Origin: Microbotryomycetes sp. JL201
Taxonomy: Eukaryota; Basidiomycota; Microbotryomycetes
Direction of reading: 5' to 3'
NCBI GenBank assembly: GCA_033819885.1
Contig: JAQYUZ010000053.1
Span: forward strand, 47,698 to 111,697
DNA: 64,000 nt
Shown here: positions 40,808-63,864 of the stretch, piece after piece
Layout: each line of letters begins with the position of its first letter
Position numbering within the stretch: position 1 is the stretch's first letter
The notes under the pieces: model-generated
The model's input: only the letters and a program-made list of their open reading frames with translations
Databases searched by the model: none
Told to the model about the DNA's origin: nothing
Program-made: the position numbers and the translations under genes

Positions 40808-43800
40808 CTAGACATATGCCCAACCATCTTGTGCATCAGCCCATCTAGCCAATTCTGCGCCGGTCGCGTCTCTAAACCTGGCAGCATCCGGAACGGCAGA
40901 AAGCTCTGCTCCTCCTTCGGCAGACTCAATCGAGTTTTTGACAGGCCGAGTCGAGTCGTATAGCACACCAAAGCCAGAACCGCCGACGGTCGTCTCATAA
41001 GTATCAAAGCCATCGGCTGCCAGAGCTTGCTTGAGTTCATCCAATAAAGTTTCATCAAATTCTGCGATAGCACAAATTCGACGTCAATGCTGCGACTTTG
41101 ATTCCTTAAGCTGAGCATGACTTACTGTCTGGCACGATGGTTACTGCACACCCACCGCCGCCGGCGCCGGTCAATTTAGTGTGCAAGCCCCAAGGCTGCT
41201 GCAACGTCTTTGCTCTGACAGCTTCGAGTGACGCATGGCCGACGCCGAGAGACACGAGGTGAGAGTGGTTCTCATCGATCAACTTCTCGAGTGTCGCCAG
41301 TTGTGTTTCTCGGGGCATGTCCGTGTCAGTCAGACACCTCCGCGCCTCGTCAGCGATCCCTTGGATTGACCTCATGATCGGATTGACGAGATCGGGTTCC
41401 TGAGTCAATGAAAAGTGCCATGAGGACCAAGAAAGCCGTGCTTGGATGAGCTCGACGCACCTCTAGCTTTCGTCGTGCGACACCGGCAACCAGCGTCTTA
41501 GTGTCCCGCGGCACTTTAGTGTTGGTGATCAGGAACCGTATTGATTTGAAACTAAGGGTAAGGAATCGTCAGCTGGTCATCGAGTATGCAAACCGACCTC
41601 AACGCACCCGTGCAGTCCATCGAGACCGCCCGATCGACCTTTTACGGCCTTCGTGAACGCAATCGCACCGCCGAGACAAGACACCGTGTTGTCAACTCCG
41701 CTCGGAGTGCCATGGAGGATCTTTTCGGCAGTGAACGCCCATGAGTTGACGACTTCGGCTTGCTCCGAGGTTACAGCCCGTCTTCCGTGATGTGTTGCAG
41801 CTGCCGCTGGACTGAGGTGTGGCAGAGGCAGATGGGACTGCGTGTACAAGAGAGCCGAGCTAACGCAAACGGAGAAAGCGGCGGAGGAGCCCATGCCGGC
41901 GCCGATGGGTAAAGCTGATCGAACGGTGAACGTTTGGGATGCTCGCTTCTCTGCCGACAAGTGCATGTACAGGTACAAGAATGCAAGTTGCGAGGCAACG
42001 ACGGTAGGCTGGTCACCTTGCGTGTATTTCTGTGCGAGCAGGTCGAGCAAGCTTTGGTCTGGCTGAGATTCCGGTCGAGGTGCTTTCGACGCCATGATCG
42101 GGTCAACAGAGTTCCATGGGAGACTGGCGACGTCCCATGTTGCTTCGAATCCAAAGTCAGGCAAGACGAGCGAGACGCGGCCGTCCAACCGTGCCTCAGT
42201 GAGGCAATAACATCGCAAGTCTACAGATCCAGCAATGGCGGTCTGCATATCACGAGCTGTCAAACAGGCGTCTGAGGGCAAGGATTGGGATTTGATGCTT
42301 ACGACACCATGCACTACGGCGTGCTCGCCAAACAAGATGACCTTGCCCGGCGCAGAAACAATAAGTTGCTTGAAGCCGTCAGTGACAACATCTTCGAGGT
42401 CATCAGCGAGGCCGAGCTCGTCTCGTTCTTCCTGAGTCATTACCCGCTCCAGTTTCGCTCTCGGGCCGGCCTCATCGACAACGCGTACTGCGCCCGCTTC
42501 GAGCAAGGCCGCTTCGAGATCGTCGATCAAATCCTCTGGGTCTTCAATACCAACGCAGAGTCGGATCAAGTCTTCAGGCAGATTGCGTTCCTTGCGCACT
42601 TTTGGGTCGATCGACGCGTGGCTGGAGCGAAAGACAGGGTCAGACTCTAGGATCTTTGCGAACAGCGCATTTTCTGACCTCATGAGACATGGCATGCTAA
42701 TGAGCGAATTGATGCAGCCAAAGCTGACCGAGATGCCCCACAGCCTTGCTGCCCCGACTATGCGTTCACTCAGAGCCTTGTCACGCGTTTCAAAGCTGAG
42801 GACGGCACCAGCGCCAGAGGCTATCCGGTCGTGGATCTCTTTGCCAGGGTGACCAGGAAGACCGGGATAGTTGACTTTGAAGCCAAGATTGTGCAGATAC
42901 TGGGCAACGAGATGCGCGGTTGCTTGCTGCTTGTCGAGTCGCAGTGCGAGCGTCTTGACTCCGCGCAAAAGCAAGAACGAGTCGAATGGCGACAGACCGT
43001 TGCCGATTGAATTGATGACAAAACCAATTTGCTTGAATGCGGACTGTTGTCAGCCGCCTGAAAAAAACTCGCCTTGCTCGGCTCGGACTCACCTTTGCAA
43101 TCTCGTCCGAGTTGCAGCAGATGATGCCTGCCATCAGGTCGTGATGACCGCTGAGATACTTTGTACCACTGTCGTAAACAATGTCGCAGCCGAGCTCAAG
43201 CGGACGTTGCAGGGCCGGGCTCATCATCGTGTTGTCGACGACAACACATGCGTTTGGTGCGTGATCGTGGACCATGGTTGAGATGGCCTCGATGTCTGCG
43301 ATCTGCAGAAGAGGGTTGGTGGGTGACTCTAGCAAGACCATCGTGACGCGCTCTGACGGGTCCCGCAGGATGGGCAGCAGAGCTTTCGGGTCGGTCGTTG
43401 GCACGTGGTGAACCTTGATACCGTTGTGGGCTTTGAGGTACGTGAGTAGCCTGTTTGAGCCGCCATAGAGGTCGTTACCTGCAATAATAGAGTCCCCTGG
43501 CTTGAGCAGGCGGAAAATGACGTCGAGTGCACCCATGCCGGATGTGACTGCAAATGCGTGGCGTGCGGATGAAATTTTGGCAATGTGGTGCTCTGTGGAT
43601 GAGATTAGAGAGCAACTCGGTCAGCATGCGTGTTGTGAGTGAGTGAAATCGGGTTCTGTGTCGAGCATTCATGTGTACTGCAGCGTGCGCCGAGTGGTGC
43701 TGGGCTGGGGCGCGCGCGCGCGCAGCTCGATAACGCCATCGCGAACGCTCGACGCGGCCCGAGCGCGCGCACGATCATTGCAATCTCGCAAAGGCGGCAA

Positions 43801-44269
43801 GGGCACACGAATGTGATGTGTTCGACCATGTCTGCGCATGCTCAGAGCGTGCCACCGTGTCCGGACGAATTGTCGGCCGGTGCGGCCCCCGCCTTTTTGA
43901 CTCGCATTGGCCCGATGAGAGTGCTGCTTGCGGCTTACCCAGGTGGCTGCGAGTCGGGTTGCCGCTGCGTGTATAGTCGTACTGTCCACCCATGCCCTTG
44001 AACGTTGCCGTCTGATAGATTGGCACGCTTGACGAGCCGTACTGGTCCTTGTGCGACGGGTCGGGATTGTCGACCGTCGCGCATTGCGTCGCGAACCGGT
44101 AAGGCTTGGCTGACACGAGAGCATCCCAAGTCAGTCGCGAGCCCTGCACGGAGCGCCAGCGACTCTCTCGGCACTCACATCTCAGCAGCGACGCCGTCAA
44201 CGAGCCAGCGACGGATGAGCTAGAGTCGATTGGCGTCGAGGCGCCAGACCGGGGCGACATGGAAGCCAT
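40808..44269 (-). CDS. Cystathionine beta-lyase / mevalonate kinase fusion
   Basis: One frame encodes two enzymes. Exons 44269-44179, 44109-43939, 43592-43093, 43031-42303, 42242-41608, 41551-41461, 41399-41126 and 41061-40808 total 914 residues. An in-frame ATG at 44383 would add 38. Residues ~30-440 are a PLP-dependent cystathionine beta-lyase: QYDYTRSGNPTRSHLEHHIA, TSGMGALDVIF, VVDNTMMSPALQRPLELG, the PLP-lysine site SGTKYLSGHHDLMAG and SVSFGCINSLISMPCLM. Residues ~475-914 are mevalonate kinase (yeast ERG12): SAPGKVILFGEHAVVHGVTA, PIGAGMGSSAAFSVCVSSAL, GTPSGVDNTVSCLGGAIAF and KLTGAGGGGCAVTIVPD. The junction (GIEDPEDLIDDLEAALLEAG to RDELGLADDLEDVVTDGFKQ) is inside exon 43031-42303 with no stop codon. 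An internal ATG at 42440 might start the kinase alone. Confidence 0.88.
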
Positions 44270-45222: not shown

Positions 45223-45372
45223 ACGTTTCGCCGATCCGTATGTCTGCATTCTTGGAGTATTTGTACATTGAATTAGTTGTAACAGAAGACGAGAGCTTCA
45301 AGAGAGCGTGTGCCACACCGGCGCAACAGGAGTCTGAGACCTATCGAACCGCGAGGAGTCACAAGGAAGCGA

Positions 45373-46549
45373 ATGTCGCCCCTACACACTCATGCTCAAC
45401 CAGGGCCCATGACGCTCTACGACATTCTCGGAGTCCCTGCGTCAGCTTCAACCGACCAAATAAGGACCGCTTACGTCGCCACAGTCAGTGCGCTTCAGCA
45501 CCGCTCGACAAGCAGTTAACGTTGGACGCTGTCCTTATACAATGACTGCAGGCCAAGCGTTACCATCCAGACTACGCTCCGACCCAGCTCCGGAGTGAAT
45601 ACGAGCAAAAGTTTCATGCTGTGACAAAAGTATTTCGAGTGCTGAGTGACCGTGAGTCGGTCAAACGAGTCGCTCAGGTTAAGACTGACGAGGTGTCTCA
45701 GCGAGAGCCAGGGAATCTTACGACAAGAGCCTTTCGTTGCAAGCAAGCTCGACTCAGCTCTCTGCTCCGCTTTCGCCCGCTGCGCTGAATCGTCTCGTCT
45801 CTCCCGTATCATCATCAGCCTGCACGGCTCTTGCTGCTACTCGACCGCAACAATCATCTGCCCTCGTCGTGCCCGGTGCTCACACGTCGATGAACAGGTC
45901 TTCCCCTCAAGCTTCGCTTAATTTGATGCAAGCGCTTGGATCTGTGGTCGATCCTAATGACCCACTTTTGCGCACGGTCAAGTACGGCACAGAGTGGACT
46001 CTTCCGGGCAGATACCCTTCTTCTAACCGACCTAGATCTGTTTCGCCACGTGTCGATCACGCATACAATGCCGGTATTGCCGCCGCTGTACCTTGCGGCA
46101 GCCCAATGAACCCAACAACGGTACAACCTCCCGAGCATTTCAGTTCAGTCCGCTCGAGTGCTGCCCGCCACCCTCAGCGAATCAGCGCAACTTTCAACAA
46201 CGGCGAACGGCTGCCGGATGGTAGACTCTTGGTCAGTCATCTCACCAGGTCCATTCGCATAATTTTTCTGAAGTAAGTCCGACAGACCCGTCGAGGCAGA
46301 GTAGAAGTCGAACGAGATCTTAGCGGCGCCGTCCGTTGGAATTCATCAAACATTCAAACAATCTATCAAAGCGACACCTTCGCTCAACCAGACTCTTTTG
46401 TTCCGCCGCATCTACACTCTGACTTGAACTCGCGTGCGCATACAGATAGAGGCCGACGTTCAAGCTGGCAACCCTTCACCTCGCCAAACGTGTCCAATGC
46501 TCATTCTTTGCCGCCGAATCAACTGAGCGAAGTGAAAAAAGAGCAGTAG
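45373..46549 (+). CDS. J-domain (DnaJ-like) co-chaperone
   Basis: Exons 45373-45483, 45552-45651, 45702-46231 and 46286-46549 give 334 residues. The J domain sits at the N-terminus: TLYDILGVPASASTDQIRTA, then AKRYHPDYAPTQLRSEYEQK with the HPD triad that stimulates Hsp70 ATPase. FHAVTKVFRVLSDPRARESY completes the fold. The remaining ~250 residues are Ser/Pro-rich without G/F or zinc-finger regions (type III J-protein). One recognisable island is DPNDPLLRTVKYGTEWTLPG. Start could also be the ATG at 45409 (MTLYDILGV). Location unknown; some short J-proteins of this form are mitochondrial. Confidence 0.83.
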
Positions 46550-47670: not shown

Positions 47671-50492
47671 CTAGTTCTTCTTGCCCAGAGCTCGCAACGC
47701 CAGTTCCTCAAGATCGACAGCAGGCGCTGCCGGTAGTTCCCTGTCGACTTTACGCCGCTTTGTGTCGGCTCGGGGCCTATAGACTCCGTTGTCATTCTCG
47801 TCGCCATCAGACGCATCAAAGTCAACGAGACCGTCGAACGTAGGTGACGTATAGCCATCGTCGTCATCGCCAGACTCGATCACTGCGCCCACCTCTTCTC
47901 CGTCCTGTGTAGATTCACGTGAGTCGGTGTAATGCTGCGATGAACCACAATCACACTCACATCGCGCTCTGCAGTCTTGCGTTTCCGCTTTTTCTCCCGC
48001 CGCTTCTCTTTCTGCCTTTCTTTATCGAGCACATCGGCCTTTGCGAGCGCCAATCGCTCCTGCTCCACAAATTTGGCCTGTTGCGATTGAACGTCGCCAT
48101 CCTTCTTGAATTCGTCTTCGTCCTTGAGTTCGTAGATCTCCCGTGCCGTGCCGTCGTCGTCAAACACCAGCTTGGTTGGGTTGCCTCGCTGCGAAAGCAT
48201 AGCTTTCTTGGACAGAGCCATCTTTTGCTTGCGCTTTGAAACGAAATTGGACTCTGGCAGCTCCGCCTCGTTCAATTCGTGATCCCGTCGCTTGAGTGTG
48301 ATGAAATCCTCTTCGTCGTTGCCAACATCTACTAGATCGTCTCTCTCGTCGTCTGATCGGTCAATAAGCTTGTTGTAATGGTCGGACAGAATCGTCTGAC
48401 TTTTTCGACCGAACATGCGATCGTACTTTGTCTTGACGCCATTTTCTCGTTTGGCAGGAGCTTCCTCGCCGTCGACACTGCTATCATCGCCAACATCGTC
48501 ATCGCGATCGTTGTCTGCGCCCAAATCGCTCTCGCCTGCCCCGCTGTCATCGTCTTCCGCGTCCGAGTCGTCGCGAAGACCAGCTCGCTCATCCCCATCT
48601 TCGTCTCCTTTGCCATCGGATTCGGCCAATTCTTTCTTGAGGTCTTCCACCTGCCTAACAGCATTTTTCTTGGCCGATGCCTCCTGCTTGCTGACAAACT
48701 TGATTTTCGGTGCTCCAGCGAGACCGAGCGACGACGCAAACGCCTCCAGCGGCAATTCGTCAATCTTGAACACGGCCTTGTCCTTTTGAAGGTAGACCGA
48801 ACGCACGTAAGATATGAATGCCTATCATTAATCAATTGTCAGCGTTATGATTGGTTGCAAGGGCTTCTTCGCCACAAACTCGCCCTTTGAGCCAAGAACT
48901 TGATTTCGGGAAACTGAAACGCAGCAGATTGCAGCTGTGCGGCAATGTTCTGCTTCTTCTTCGAGTTGGCGTTTACTTTCGTGATATCGACCTTCTTGTC
49001 TTGTAAGCGCTTGACCATGCCTGGTTCCTCGCTCGGCAAAAGGAACAATAGCGCCTTGCCCTTGCTTTCATATCTCGCCGTTCTACCGACGCGATGAATG
49101 TACGTCTCGACATCTTCCGGGCAATCGACTTGGACAACCCAGTCGATAGAAGGGAAATCGAGGCCGCGTGCAGCAATGTCGGTCGCAAACAAGATCGAAT
49201 GCTTGGCCGACAGGAAGCGCTGATAGATTTCAAGTCGCTGTGTTTGCTTCTGTTTGCCGTGCATATGCAAAAGAGGCACACCAGGCCGCATGTGGCGAAA
49301 GTTTTCGTAGACGAACCGAACCTGCTTGCCGCTTGATAGAAAGACGATAGTCTTCGTGAAAAGGTGAGTTTTGATAAAGCTCCACAAAACGTCCAATTTC
49401 TCTTCAAGTGGAACGACCATGTAGTGCTGCTCGAGGTTCTTTGGCGTCTCTGTCATTTCTTCTTCGTCATCGGCGCCTTCTGCCTTGCCCTTGCCCTTTG
49501 CGGCCGCAGACTGTGCAACTTCTCGCACTGCTACATACTCTGGATCGTGAAGCGACAGACGTGCCAGATCCTTGACCGACTTTGTCTGCGTAGCCGAGAA
49601 CAAGAGTGTCTGGCGGGTTCTGGGCAAGTTTGCGACAATGGCGTTGACACAGGACTGGAAGCCCATATCGAGGATGCGATCGGCTTCGTCGAGCACTGCA
49701 GCGGGAGATCATGTGAGCAAGCAGTACTTTTGCAAAACGTCAGAAGCCGTCATCTCACCAAGCATTTGCAAGTGATCGCAGTCGAACCCGAGCGTCTGGT
49801 CCATGTGCTGCAGGAGACGGCCGGGCGTCGCGACGAGGATATTCATGCGAGACAAGCGCTCCTGCTCGTCTTTCAAGTTCTTGCCACCAATCACGAGGCC
49901 GGCCGAGAACTGGTGTTTGTGGCCAATCTTGCGCAAAACTTCAAAGATTTGAACTGCCTAAGAAGCGATACAAGTCGAATCCCGGGTCAGCCGTGACACT
50001 TGAAACATCAACAGTGTCGCTTGTTTGACTTGCCAGCTCGCGCGTGGGCGAGATGATGAGAGCGCCGAGTCCGTCTGTCGGTCCCCATTTCTTGCGCAAG
50101 AGATTCTCGAGGACGGGGATCAGGAACGCCAGCGTCTTGCCACTACCTGTGCGTGCTGCTCCAAGAACGTCTTTGCCCTTGAGGGCGAGCGGCAGCGCGC
50201 GTGCCTGGATGTCTGTCAAGCGCGAGTAATACGCGGACCTGAGCACGTGGGTCAGCGTCTCCTGCAGCTCAGAAACGACACAACAGTCTTGGCACACCAC
50301 TCACTTGAGACCTTGGAGGGTCGCCTGTGACAGTGGCAGCTGTGCAAACTCTGTGGCGAGGCCGTGAAACTCGGCGACGGCATGCTCGAGTTGCTGCAGC
50401 TCGTGCTGCTCGCGCCGCTTGCGCTCCTTGCGCGGATTCGTCTTGCCTTGACTTGTGTTCGTTGTCTGCCGTCTCGGCTTTGGCTTGTCCAT
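47671..50492 (-). CDS. DBP4: ATP-dependent DEAD-box RNA helicase DBP4 (HCA4/DDX10)
   Basis: Nucleolar helicase for 18S rRNA processing. Exons 50492-50305, 50238-50030, 49953-49759, 49695-48884, 48821-47961 and 47904-47671 give 832 residues. Motifs in order: [13 protein letters not shown] (Q), [12 protein letters not shown] (I), SPTRELA (Ia), [10 protein letters not shown] (Ib), [12 protein letters not shown] (II), FSATQT (III), [20 protein letters not shown] (V) and [10 protein letters not shown] (VI). DBP4-specific [20 protein letters not shown] follows, then an acidic/KKRKRK C-terminal extension. The intron after FLAQR needs a GC donor (AGG|GCGAGT, 48883). Divergent from the Kar9-like gene. 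Confidence 0.96.
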
Positions 50493-50776: not shown

Positions 50777-53350
50777 ATGACACCAGCAGACAGCGACCGT
50801 CGGTCTAGTCGCGTGTTTGACCTGGCAGGCCGCTTCGAATCGTCAGTCAACATCTCGCGCATCGATGCGCAGCAACAGACTGTTTCCGCCGACCTCGAGC
50901 ACCTGACAATGGCCAAAAGAGTCAATGGACTGAGATTGAGGTAAGCCTGACATTGGCGCGTGCTCCCTAGCATGGCGCTCTGACCGCTAACGCGTGCCTC
51001 GTCGTTGATCTCCGCCTCGCCCTGCCTCCAAACACAGCTATTCAGGGGGTGACAGCACACCAAAATCATCAATCAGTCCCACAACACCCACACAGTCCAA
51101 CTTGTCGCCGTGCGCCCGGAATGAGCCGTCTGTTGAAGCTCGGGCCGCGAATGGGGCAACACAGGAGGCGGCGGCAGCAACTAAAGGGCATGTGCGACTC
51201 CGTACTCCGCTCGAGAACTTAATCTCAACTTACAAGTCTGCGTCACACTTGTCTCACTGGTAGGTCGCTCGCCCAAGACATTCAAGCAGCCACTCGCGAG
51301 CTTGAATGCTCTATTCAAGATGTACAGACGCTCTTGTTCGAGATCCAGGTCAGTCAAATCTGACCAGTCTACTCTCACTGTGGCGCTCACGTTGTCTCCT
51401 CGCGCTGCAGGAGCTGCGCCACTCGGGCCAACTTTGCTCTCGAGAATCGAGATCCACAACGCCCTCCCACCAGGTTTCAGAACCCAGCTTGTCCTCGTCG
51501 CAAGGATCCCTGTCGCCCTCGTTATCGTCGACAGCAGAGAGCGTATCAACGAGAGCGACAACGGCAGCATCCCAAGACCGCTCGCCACTCGAGGGCGCCG
51601 TCAACAGGCTCAAATACAAGGCGGAGCTCATTAATCAGGCGAAGTGCCTCGTTGAGATTGATGTGAGAGCTCTAGATCAGCTTGCAGATGGCTCGCGCGG
51701 AAATGCACAAGCCCTGAAAGCCTGGACCGAAGTTAGAGCAAGCTGGACCGAGGTGCGGAGCGAAATCGAGGTGAGCTCATGCTGACAAGGAGCTTCGAAT
51801 CGGTCTGACAGAACTGTATACAGACGCTCTATACAGAATTGAATGAGGACAGATGGCTCACCATGTTTCGGACCGTTGCCTCTCAAGCGGATGACATGCT
51901 GCACTCACTCGAGAGCGTACTCGCGCAATGTGACGATACTCTTGAAAGTGCAGGACCAGACACCGAAACCGTCGTCAAAGGCCTTCAATCGAAAATACAA
52001 TCGTACGCGCCTGCATGCGAGCGAGTCATCCGTATCCTCGCCAAGAACATTGCCGACAGGTCGACAACGAATGGCGAGGCCTTGCGCACATACTCGGATG
52101 CCAAGCTCAGATGGGACAAGCTGAGGCGGCGCATAGCGAGCCAAAACGCACAGCCGGACGCGCCAATTCAACAGACCCCCTCATGCGCTTCTAGTTCTCA
52201 ACGAAGCTCGCAGGGATCACCAATCAATTCGCCGTCCAAAGATGGGAGCGCCGCGAGGTCTCGTGCCTATTCGCACAGTCGTAGCGCCGCCAGCCCGGAG
52301 AAGCCTCGCTGGAACGCTTCGAAGATACGAACGGACGCGAGCAGGTCATCGGGCAGGTCATCAGCTCTTGGACATCGCCGACCCTCGTCTAGACCATCCA
52401 TCTCTCTCGATGCATCTTACGGAGATCATAGACCCGTGTCGCCAGCCTTCTCGGATGCATCCTCGACTGTTAGCCGCGATCGACCATCAACGCCAAGCAA
52501 GATCCCCTTGCCGTCATCTAGCCGTCGCCAGAGCATTACTCCGTCTGCGCTCGGATCCGATACTATATCTTTGATGCAGCGAGCGCTATCTCCGACGCCG
52601 ACGTCTCGACGAGTGTCGGTGGGCCCTCTTCGTTCTCGACAGTCTCTGGGCTCTTCCGTCAATTCGTTGCGGTTGACTGGTCCAGGCCCGTCCATCACAT
52701 CTGTCATGTCTCGGTCGCGTACGCCGGAGCCGAGACGTGCAAGCGACAAGACCCGTCCGCCCCCCGTTCCTGCCTTGCCACTGTCGTACCGCTCCGACAA
52801 CCAATCGACTCCCCGCTCGGTCTCGGCCAGCGCTATTATGCCAGCCTCGTCTCGCAGGCAATCCTTGCTGCCCACGCCTCAGCCGTCTTCGAGACGGCGG
52901 TCCGTTTCGCCCATGCCTCCGCCGCTACCTAAGCTCGATCTGGGAATGCAGAACGACGGAATGTACACTGCAAATCCAGCAGATCCGCTGGACAAGCACG
53001 TGGCGGACATTGTCAACTCTGATGGGGCTTTCGGTCAAATAGACACTGTTCGATTGGATGCACCATTCACGATTGCTCAGGTCGCGATGCTCGAGCTCTT
53101 GTCTGCAAAATACCTTTTCAGGCCACGCTCAAACTCGTCACAAGGGGATTTTAAACCCGTCTTGTGCAAGCTTGTCGATCGAGTCGGTCGAGCGGCCGTC
53201 AAGGGGGAGAAAAAGGTTCTGATTCGCACCGCCACGGGCTGGCAAGACCTGGATCAGTTTGTCGCAACGATCGTTACGAGCGCGAGCACGCCGCCGCAAA
53301 CACAATCGGCTCGGAATGCACAAAGTCACGACGAATTCGAAACTTTCTGA
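50777..53350 (+). CDS. Kar9/GAS2-domain microtubule-associated protein
   Basis: Probably links microtubule plus ends to actin or cortex during spindle positioning. Exons 50777-50940, 51038-51235, 51264-51348, 51411-51770 and 51824-53350 give 777 residues. The Kar9-like helical region covers ~residues 120-420: IQDVQTLLFEIQELRHSG and TLYTELNEDRWLTMFRTVAS. A long Ser/Pro/Arg-rich basic linker follows (SxIP-like TPSKIPLPSSSR could bind EB1). The C-terminus has a GAS2 zinc-type microtubule-binding module: CKLVDRVGRAAVKGEKKVLI and RTATGWQDLDQFVATIV. The second intron (51236-51263) would be only 28 nt. A 137-nt alternative from 51127 also keeps frame. Confidence 0.8.
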
Positions 53351-53441: not shown

Positions 53442-56314
53442 TCATGACTTTTTGTAAGCCACTTGGTACCCCGACTTTGCCTCGTTGCGTCCGGCGACTG
53501 TCGTTGTCGTCAAAGTTCTCTCGGACTGTTCTGGACTGGTCCACTCTTCGATCCACCTGGCCCGAGAGATGTCAGTATAGCAACGGATTGGGGCTAGTCC
53601 ATTGGATAGGACTCACTTGAGCACTTCCTCGTGCCATCTGATCGAGTTTTGAGGTTTCAAGACCTGCAAAACGAGTGTGAAGATCAGCCAAGTGTTGACT
53701 CGCACGTTTCCCGAGACTCTCCAACTCGCCCAATGGTTCTCGTTCTCAAAGTACAACAACCTTGAAGGAATGCCAAGCCTCTGCAATGTGTTGAAGACGC
53801 CGATGCCTTCACCTTCGATCAACCTAAAGTCTTTGCCGCCGTGAATGACCAACATTGGCGTCTTCCATTTGTGGATATGGTTCTGAGGATTCCAGCGACT
53901 GTAGTTTTCTGGAACTTCCCAAGGCGTGCCACCAAATTCTCGTTCTGGAAAGTACAACTCTTCGGTCGAGAACCAAGTGCCAGAGGTTGAAAACACTCCG
54001 TCGTGGTTGACAAACGTTTGGAAACCACAAGCGTCGTTGTGGCCTTGGAGCCAATTCATCATGTAGCCGCCATAAGACGCGCCGAGGCATGCCATGCGTG
54101 ACTTGTCAATTTCTGGGTACGCTTGTTGCACAAACTGCAAACCGGCGACGAGGTCCTGGAACGGATACCCGCCCCACTGGTTCTTGATACGGTCGGTAAA
54201 GTCTTGACCGTAGCCTGTGCTGCCAGTCGGGTTGATTGCGACAGTGATGAACCCTGCAGCAGCGTAGATGTTGGGGTTCCAGCGCGTTGACCAGCTGTCC
54301 GTCCAAGCGCCTTGAGGTCCGCCGTGAACGAGGAAGGCGAGCGGATATTTCTTATTTTTGCGCAGGCTTGCATCGCCAGCTCCAGGTGGGAACAGTATGA
54401 AACCGTGCACTTGAATGCCCTCGGCCCCTGCAAACCAGAAGCTCTCTCCACGGTCCAGCTCCTTTTCGGCAGCAAGATGCTTGGTCAAAGTGGCCAAAGG
54501 CACCTGCTCAACGCCATGAGGCGCTTTTCCAGAACCTTCTTGCCGGGCAGGACGCCCAGATAGATGCAAGAGTGACAGACGATTCGGCGACGTGAGCGAG
54601 TGCTGCGTCAACAGCAAGGTTGAAGTCGAAAGAGGCGAGACCGATGCCAGCGTGTGCGAGTGAGTCAACGTCTCGGGCTCAGAGGTGGCAGCAATCGTGT
54701 CGTCGTCACCTTTCGGGACCGGCACAGACAACTGGAACAGCTTGACAAAGCCCTGGTCCTGCGCGCAGTCACTGCTGAATTAGACTGCGAGCTTGTTCAT
54801 GCTCGAGTGCCACGCAAACATACCTCTGCAGTAAGATAAATCTTTGCGTTGCAAGGGCACCAATCAATGTGCGTTGGCGATCTGTCCCACTTCTCAGTCG
54901 CGCCCCATCGGCGACCGGAGTCGAGCTCGTAGACCATAACGCGATTGCGGTCAGCTTCGTAACCGTCTTCGCGCATCTCGAGCCATGCGACGCGTTTGCC
55001 ATCCGGAGAGATCGTTGGCGAGCTGCAAGCGCCTTGCGTGCCGACCGTGAGCGCTTTGGGTTTGCCGTCTTCTGCACTTCGCGGCGACAATGACAACGAG
55101 TAGACTACGGTTCGCGAGTGCCATGCAGGGTTCACATGAGGGTCTTTGGCGTGAAAGACGAGATGATCGGCTGTGAAGGCGAAATCACCTGCGCCACCGA
55201 AAGGACCAACGGGGCATTCCTGTCGATCAGTGGGTGAACATTGTCGGCGCGGCGGTTGTCAGCGCGATGAGAGCCTTGGCTCGTAAGCCGGGCTCACAAG
55301 CTTGGTGCCTGCCAGCGGCGACTTGACTGCAGGGCGCTTTGATTCTTTGCTCGACGACGAGGCCGACGATTCCGTCTCGACAACCCATTTGCCCTCCTCA
55401 GAACCGGGCGCCTGAACATGCTCAAAGTCGTCACTCTCGTCAGACGAGCTGATCGAGCCCGGGTTTCGGGCTAAATGAATGAAGTGTGGCTGCTTGATCT
55501 CGCCCGCTGTCGACTTCCAGCTGTCCCAATGGCGGATGAACAACGAGTCGTATACTGGGAGTGCGCAAAGTAAGCGATTGGCATAGCAGACATTGTTTCG
55601 GTACACCCCACCCCGGATGTCTGATCCATTGGCAGCCTCTTGCTTGCGCTTGTTGTGCTCTGGAACTTTCCAAATGTCGCCATCGGGATACACTGTTGCG
55701 CTGAAACCAAGCACGGCGTCCCTGCTACCCTTGTTCACGTGCACTTTGAGGTCTCCGACCCTGCGTGCGGGCCAATATGAGTTTCGGATGCCACTTGCTT
55801 CGGATTCGATGCCCACTTACTCGACAGGCAGGCTCGCGAGCAGGTAGCCGTCAGACTCGAGGTCGTTCGTGTCAAACACCCACAATTCCACGCCCGTAGC
55901 GTCGTCGTCGCCAGCGCGCTGCTTTTTGAAGGCAGAGTCGCTCACGCCACGCGGGTGGTCTTGTCGGCGGCCCAGGTTATCGCGAATGGCGACAACGCCT
56001 CTTGCGGCTGACGGCCTCATGTATACAAATGTGGTGTCGTCGAGCCATGCACAGTCTGTGTATGCCAAGTCTGTGAGGACCAAGCGGGGATCGTGAGTCT
56101 CGGAGAATGAGGTGGCGTCGTTTGCGGTTTCTAGGTTGACGAGGTAGATTGATTTTGATGTTCTGCCCTGGCCATCTGCCGCCTGCAGCGAGAACGTGGT
56201 GCTAGGCCACAGTGCGAGCGTGCCGCGTGGGTTGGCCATGGCCGCTTGCGGCCTCGGCAATTGCACTAGGTCATGGATCCTGAGCGTCTTGCCCTGTGTC
56301 AACGGAGTAGCCAT
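53442..56314 (-). CDS. S9 prolyl oligopeptidase-family peptidase (DPP5/acyl-peptidase type)
   Basis: Serine peptidase with beta-propeller and alpha/beta-hydrolase domains. Exons 56314-55821, 55760-55298, 55219-54824, 54758-53730, 53663-53617 and 53556-53442 give 847 residues. The propeller carries ACSSPTISPDGKRVAWLEMR and HIDWCPCNAKIYLTAED. The catalytic domain has FLVHGGPQGAWTDSWS and the nucleophile GASYGGYMMNWL. The acid HGGKDFRLIEGEG and His ENHWVLKPQ complete the triad. A Ser-rich insertion (VVETESSASSSSKESKRP) enlarges the propeller. No signal peptide is evident, so it is probably cytosolic, unlike secreted DPP V. The intron in ENHW|VLKP needs a GC donor (TGG|GCGAGT, 53729). Confidence 0.9.
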
Positions 56315-63757: not shown

Positions 63758-63864
63758 TGACATCAGTGGGACTCGAACCCACGCCTCTTGCGAGACCAGG
63801 AAGTTCGCTATGCGAACAAGCTGAAGCTTGAATCTGGCGCCTTAGACCGCTCGGCCATGATGCC
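63758..63864 (-). tRNA. tRNA-Leu (CAA) with intron
   Basis: Minus strand. Acceptor stem GGCATCA/TGATGTC (one G-U pair), discriminator A. The D-arm GGCCGAGCGGTCTAAGGC is typical of class II leucine tRNAs. The anticodon loop starts CCAGA TTCAAG, anticodon CAA, followed by an intron of about 24 nt containing CAGCTTGTTCGCATAGCGAA. The variable arm TCTCGCAAGAGGC and T-arm GTGGG TTCGAGT CCCAC are intact. The base pair closing the anticodon loop reads A-C. A T6 run downstream is the terminator. Confidence 0.93.

Follow-up and report, generated by a model that had tools for sequence, protein, structure and literature searches.

The cystathionine beta-lyase-mevalonate kinase fusion of basidiomycetes: gene structure, distribution and probable bifunctionality of the copy in Microbotryomycetes sp. 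JL201

Background

The fusion of a cystathionine beta-lyase to a mevalonate kinase is an already published trait that is common to many basidiomycetes. It is described in the available portions of PMC3342255, PMC3468542, PMC4129116, PMC3720577 and PMC3846667, and the statement in a preliminary description of the locus considered here, that no such fusion was known, is therefore wrong. According to the accessible text of the first report (PMC3342255, May 2012), the fusion, there named metC-MVK, is present in 12 basidiomycetes, all but Laccaria bicolor, and is the sole mevalonate kinase homologue as well as the sole best match to metC among the genomes analysed. The same text places the origin of the fusion in the basidiomycete ancestor, states that in 2012 the reason for it was under study, and records a 16-residue insert in the kinase half of seven of the 12 species, which is not a required feature. 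As far as its available text goes, PMC3468542 (October 2012) describes STR3 with a fused mevalonate kinase in all Basidiomycota examined except Postia placenta, finds no stand-alone kinase in those Basidiomycota, and holds that among fungi the stand-alone kinases are limited to Ascomycota. This STR3-kinase fusion is the same as the one discussed below. The accessible parts of PMC4129116, PMC3720577 and PMC3846667 extend the fusion to three further fungi, and each of these papers cites or echoes that first report; PMC3720577 and PMC3846667 document it in transcript data from species other than the present fungus. No mention of the fusion was seen in the available portions of PMC3224108, PMC8058980 and PMC11506715, and no biochemical or functional study of it was found among the search matches listed from the openly licensed papers of PubMed Central, a collection outside which most subscription journals lie.

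The protein encoded at the present locus shows a domain order identical to that of metC-MVK and a length of 895 residues, against an average of about 886 aa given in the available text of PMC3342255. There is no essential difference between the two, the protein studied here being the representative from a Microbotryomycetes species; its host, Microbotryomycetes sp. JL201, belongs by taxonomy to the Pucciniomycotina and thus to the Basidiomycota, like the other carriers of metC-MVK.

Results and discussion

Gene structure and the junction between the two halves

The window, that is the whole stretch of 64,000 nucleotides that was analysed, contains the fusion gene at 40808..44269 on the reverse strand, from start codon to stop. 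The model derived from the window DNA has nine exons and eight introns and encodes 895 residues with a computed mass of about 96 kDa. Exon 1 (44179..44269) opens with the start codon at 44269 and is followed by three further exons, namely exon 2 (43939..44109) and exon 4 (42679..43031), both coding for the lyase, and between them exon 3 (43093..43592), which active-site alignment identifies as the lyase core with the presumed PLP lysine K232. Exon 5 (42303..42621) is the junction exon and contains the C-terminus of the lyase, the linker (residues 417-460) and the first kinase motif. The remainder of the kinase is encoded by exons 6 (41608..42242), 7 (41461..41551), 8 (41126..41399) and 9 (40808..41061), the last of which supplies its C-terminus and the stop codon. 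The translation agrees letter for letter with the deposited protein of the same organism (P0001, 895 residues). Because P0001 was annotated on this same DNA, the agreement checks the model rather than independently proving the splicing.

The preliminary description had given seven introns and 914 residues and had treated 43031-42303 as one exon. This segment actually comprises two exons, 43031-42679 and 42621-42303, with an intron between them at 42622..42678 (reverse strand) that is recovered by the alignment to P0001, by the nine-exon model and by comparison of the PCxMSHASI motif across the family. The intron is 57 nt long (GTCAGA...CTCCAG), a multiple of three, and lacks an in-frame stop. 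Of 120 fusion proteins, P0001 among them, 117 have the motif unbroken at this site; of the remainder, P0035 and P0045, which we take to be Agaricales models, contain unrelated inserts at the site and P0026 has no match to the pattern. The inserts in P0035 and P0045 look like retained introns. The TIGR01329 profile scores the 895-residue protein at 542.7 bits against 513 for a 918-residue read-through form, which also differs from the former by 4 residues at the acceptor of intron 3. The unbroken motif and the higher score together provide independent support for the 895-residue model. The seven-intron, 918-residue alternative is ruled out by P0001 and the family scores, which reveal the stop-free 57-nt intron and the acceptor of intron 3; the end of that intron at 43032, as originally positioned, agrees with the alignment to P0001.

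The C-terminus of the lyase, the linker and the start of the kinase all lie within exon 42621-42303, and joining them requires no splice, exon skip or frame correction. The fusion is thus genuine, one gene in one frame, and in this central respect the earlier reading is borne out, both halves also exceeding curated family cut-offs (see below).

As an observation in its own right, a short, stop-free and frame-preserving intron such as that at 42678-42622 constitutes a trap for annotation.

Identity and completeness of the two halves

The N-terminal half matches the NCBIfam equivalog TIGR01329, a cystathionine beta-lyase of the eukaryotic type, above its cut-off of 487.5 bits (E = 3.5e-163), and the C-terminal half, which follows in frame from within the junction exon, matches the mevalonate kinase equivalog TIGR00549 with 209.2 bits against a cut-off of 163.05 (E = 8e-62). 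These E-values exclude a chance match. The Pfam domains PF01053, PF00288 and PF08544 are likewise each recovered above their own cut-offs. The closest solved structures by sequence are 1ibj, a cystathionine beta-lyase, presumably the Arabidopsis enzyme, which aligns with residues 47-410 of the lyase half, and the mevalonate kinases 2r3v and 1kvk, which align with residues 457-844. All three are stand-alone enzymes, unlike the fused halves to which they correspond.

Each of 15 active-site positions is conserved in 120 of 120 fusions. In the lyase half these are K232, which we take to be the PLP lysine, and Y76, R78, S105, Y130, D207 and R392, which family knowledge leads us to assume are substrate- or cofactor-binding residues; in the kinase half they are K465, E471, H472, S597, S598, E651, D662 and T797, presumably the catalytic residues of a GHMP mevalonate kinase. 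In a wider set of 175 fusions, substitutions are absent from 14 of the 15 positions (the gaps at Y76, R78, Y130 and T797 fall in a few truncated models). The exception, S105, varies, with 149 Ser, 11 Thr, 10 Cys and 5 gaps. Judged by these residues and by the family matches, both halves look like complete enzymes.

The variation at S105, the Ser of an SGM motif, has its own distribution. In the Malassezia-like group P0241-P0263, in which 7 of the 23 proteins are named Malassezia, 10 have Cys at this position, 4 have Thr and 9 have Ser, and the other lyase positions checked are unchanged. Thr is also found in Jaminaea-type fungi and in Cryptococcus depauperatus, and P0270, P0271, P0278 and P0291 are further proteins to which the S105 observation extends. 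The change may mark an altered lyase activity in the Malassezia-like, Jaminaea-type and Cryptococcus depauperatus lineages.

Copy number in the assembly

We searched the assembly (17,152,241 bases in 92 contigs, possibly incomplete) exon by exon in six frames for a second intact copy of either gene, as the preliminary description had proposed. The PF00288 profile recovers four loci. Apart from the fusion, one of these matches homoserine kinase, one diphosphomevalonate decarboxylase and one, weakly, galactokinase. When the kinase half serves as query, this gene alone is matched, in five pieces. These two exon-by-exon searches revealed no further mevalonate kinase in the assembly, and the fusion thus contains the sole mevalonate kinase detected in this genome.

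The PF01053 profile matches 14 times, distributed over five gene loci. Eight ORF pieces from the four other loci have their best NCBIfam matches among the O-acetylhomoserine sulfhydrylase, cystathionine gamma-synthase, cystathionine gamma-lyase and BesB models, mostly far below the curated cut-offs, so that these subtype names are weak. None of these eight pieces is best matched by TIGR01329, and no second cystathionine beta-lyase was found in the assembly; within the limits of the weak subtype names given to ORF pieces, the fusion is the sole best match to this enzyme in the genome.

Phyletic distribution and origin

Relatives with the same domain order had been proposed as a means of dating the fusion, and these are abundant: all of the best 120 of 747 matches to the full protein contain both PF01053 and PF00288. 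The matches listed include Microbotryomycetes, Mixia, Atractiella, Calocera, many Agaricomycetes and Bartheletia. A divergent fragment (P0144) used as query likewise recovers both domains in all of its best 120 of 7220 matches, and adds, among the matches listed, Malassezia, Jaminaea, Parajaminaea and Cryptococcus depauperatus, all fused. Taxonomy look-ups of listed examples place the fusion in species of the Pucciniomycotina, Agaricomycotina and Ustilaginomycotina. These statements apply to the best 120 matches of each search, below which exceptions may lie, and to a set of species that leaves out Laccaria bicolor, the rusts, Wallemia and Ustilago itself. The Postia placenta exception in the available text of PMC3468542 looks like a matter of gene models, because a 909-aa fusion from this species (P0074) is present among the full-protein matches listed.

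With the kinase half as query, the best 120 of 3069 matches include full-length stand-alone kinases from Mucor, Umbelopsis, Geosiphon, Basidiobolus, Synchytrium and mammals. The fungal examples stand against the restriction of stand-alone kinases to Ascomycota stated in the accessible part of PMC3468542. No ascomycete kinase was seen among these 120 matches, and the only candidates there for a stand-alone kinase in named basidiomycetes are partial models, alongside many unnamed fragments that cannot be judged. Four of the partial basidiomycete models (P0123, P0130, P0131 and P0134) retain lyase sequence; the 287-aa P0209 from Rhodofomes roseus is without the lyase domain, and the same species also has a full fusion (P0051). 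In a tree of kinases picked from the matches (19 fused and 16 stand-alone, with no ascomycete among them), the fused kinases fall together on one side of a single branch with support 100/99. As far as sequence comparison goes, this pattern fits a single fusion event before the split of the three subphyla.

The linker and the predicted structure

The linker was originally described as acidic and about 35 residues long. It is indeed net acidic in this protein, acidic residues outnumbering basic ones by 6; its length is 44 residues (417-460), and acidity is not common to the family. Net charge across 120 fusions is acidic in 63, basic in 35 and neutral in 22, which rules out acidity as a family-wide trait. 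Among 174 relatives the lyase shows a median identity to P0001 of 74% and the kinase one of 53%, compared with 16% for the linker, and linker length in the aligned fusions varies between 31 and 75 residues with a median of 44. A segment that is nearly free in sequence and yet bounded in length resembles a tether. The structure predicted from an alignment of 38 sequences has a mean pLDDT of 78.2. Both domains are ordered, and confidence is low for the N-terminal tail, for lyase segments 53-80 and 354-368 (pLDDT < 50) and for the linker at 443-453. The pTM of 0.53 leaves the relative placement of the two domains open.

The in-frame ATG noted previously within the linker does exist, at 42438..42440 on the reverse strand (first base 42440), where it forms codon 433. 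It is preceded by 11 Met codons, and its alignment column is Met in only 3 of 175 fusions, P0001 included, which rules it out as a conserved second start. A Met occurs somewhere in the linker in 34 of 120 fusions.

Functional implications and alternative interpretations

These comparisons suggest that the gene is very probably the basidiomycete metC-MVK (STR3 with its fused mevalonate kinase), a bifunctional gene that descends from an early basidiomycete ancestor and whose halves work independently on a flexible tether. The N-terminal half would split cystathionine to homocysteine for methionine, and the C-terminal half would phosphorylate mevalonate for sterols and other isoprenoids; the two would be expressed from one promoter and would fold and act without depending on one another. 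Mevalonate kinase catalyses an essential step, as in yeast, and the fusion would have been retained since the sole copy of this enzyme resides in it. Its persistence is sufficiently explained by an essential, single-copy kinase locked to its neighbour. The preliminary description had called the two pathways unrelated. This wording is overstated, because the methyl group at C-24 of ergosterol comes from SAM, a product of methionine. The fusion serves as a marker of an old gene-joining event common to the basidiomycetes sampled. It also conceals a mevalonate kinase in proteins that, among the matches listed, the databases mostly label only as cystathionine beta-lyase.

Merged neighbours are frequent in gene prediction, and this gene contains one frame-preserving intron able to mislead. 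The possibility that a hidden stop, a splice site or a sequencing error has joined two adjacent genes can nevertheless be given hardly any credence, as the junction lies inside one exon, the domain order is identical in all of the best 120 matches to the full protein, and the fusion is found in transcripts of other fungi in the available text of PMC3846667; such an artefact is already refuted in substance. Separation of the halves after or during translation, whether by initiation at the internal ATG or by proteolytic cleavage of the linker, is improbable. The ATG is in frame, 34 of 120 linkers contain a Met, and the low predicted confidence of the linker suggests that it is probably exposed; against this stand the rarity of Met in the ATG column and the upstream Met codons, and a single fused transcript or unigene is described in each of two other species in the accessible parts of PMC3720577 and PMC3846667. 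A kinase-only product from this ATG, as originally proposed, thus has little support.

Less easily set aside, though still unlikely, is a selected role for the tether, in which the fused enzyme would couple the homocysteine/methionine state to mevalonate flux or unite both activities in one regulated oligomer. The occurrence of the fusion in all three subphyla looked up, the bounded length of a linker whose sequence drifts, and the joint preservation of both active sites are in its favour. However, persistence of a sole-copy kinase accounts for the same pattern without any role for the tether, and PMC3846667, in the part available, states that the biological relevance of the fusion remains unknown. 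The specific form of this proposal, a single oligomer that senses the homocysteine/methionine state and controls mevalonate flux, having become fixed in the basidiomycete ancestor and been maintained thereafter, would similarly be a long shot; were it true, sterol synthesis would be gated by sulfur supply and, through it, by the SAM needed for sterol methylation. The preferred reading, independent halves on a flexible tether, does not need such a selected role, at which the length-bounded tether could hint.

Neighbouring features in the window

An ORF on the forward strand (45283-45519) adjoins the fusion gene in the opposite orientation and weakly matches the start of a DnaJ domain, below the Pfam cut-off. 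Beyond it lie two reverse-strand ORFs (47883-49708) that match the C-terminal parts of a DEAD-box helicase with an SPB4-type extension, a forward-strand ORF (51809-53347) that matches the yeast cortical protein KAR9 family, and a reverse-strand ORF (53616-54779) that matches the prolyl oligopeptidase family S9. On the other side of the fusion, a forward-strand ORF (9278-11242) encodes the NAT domain of N-acetylglutamate synthase. Two tRNA genes were recovered with Rfam, both on the reverse strand, at 16697-16788 and 63758-63864.
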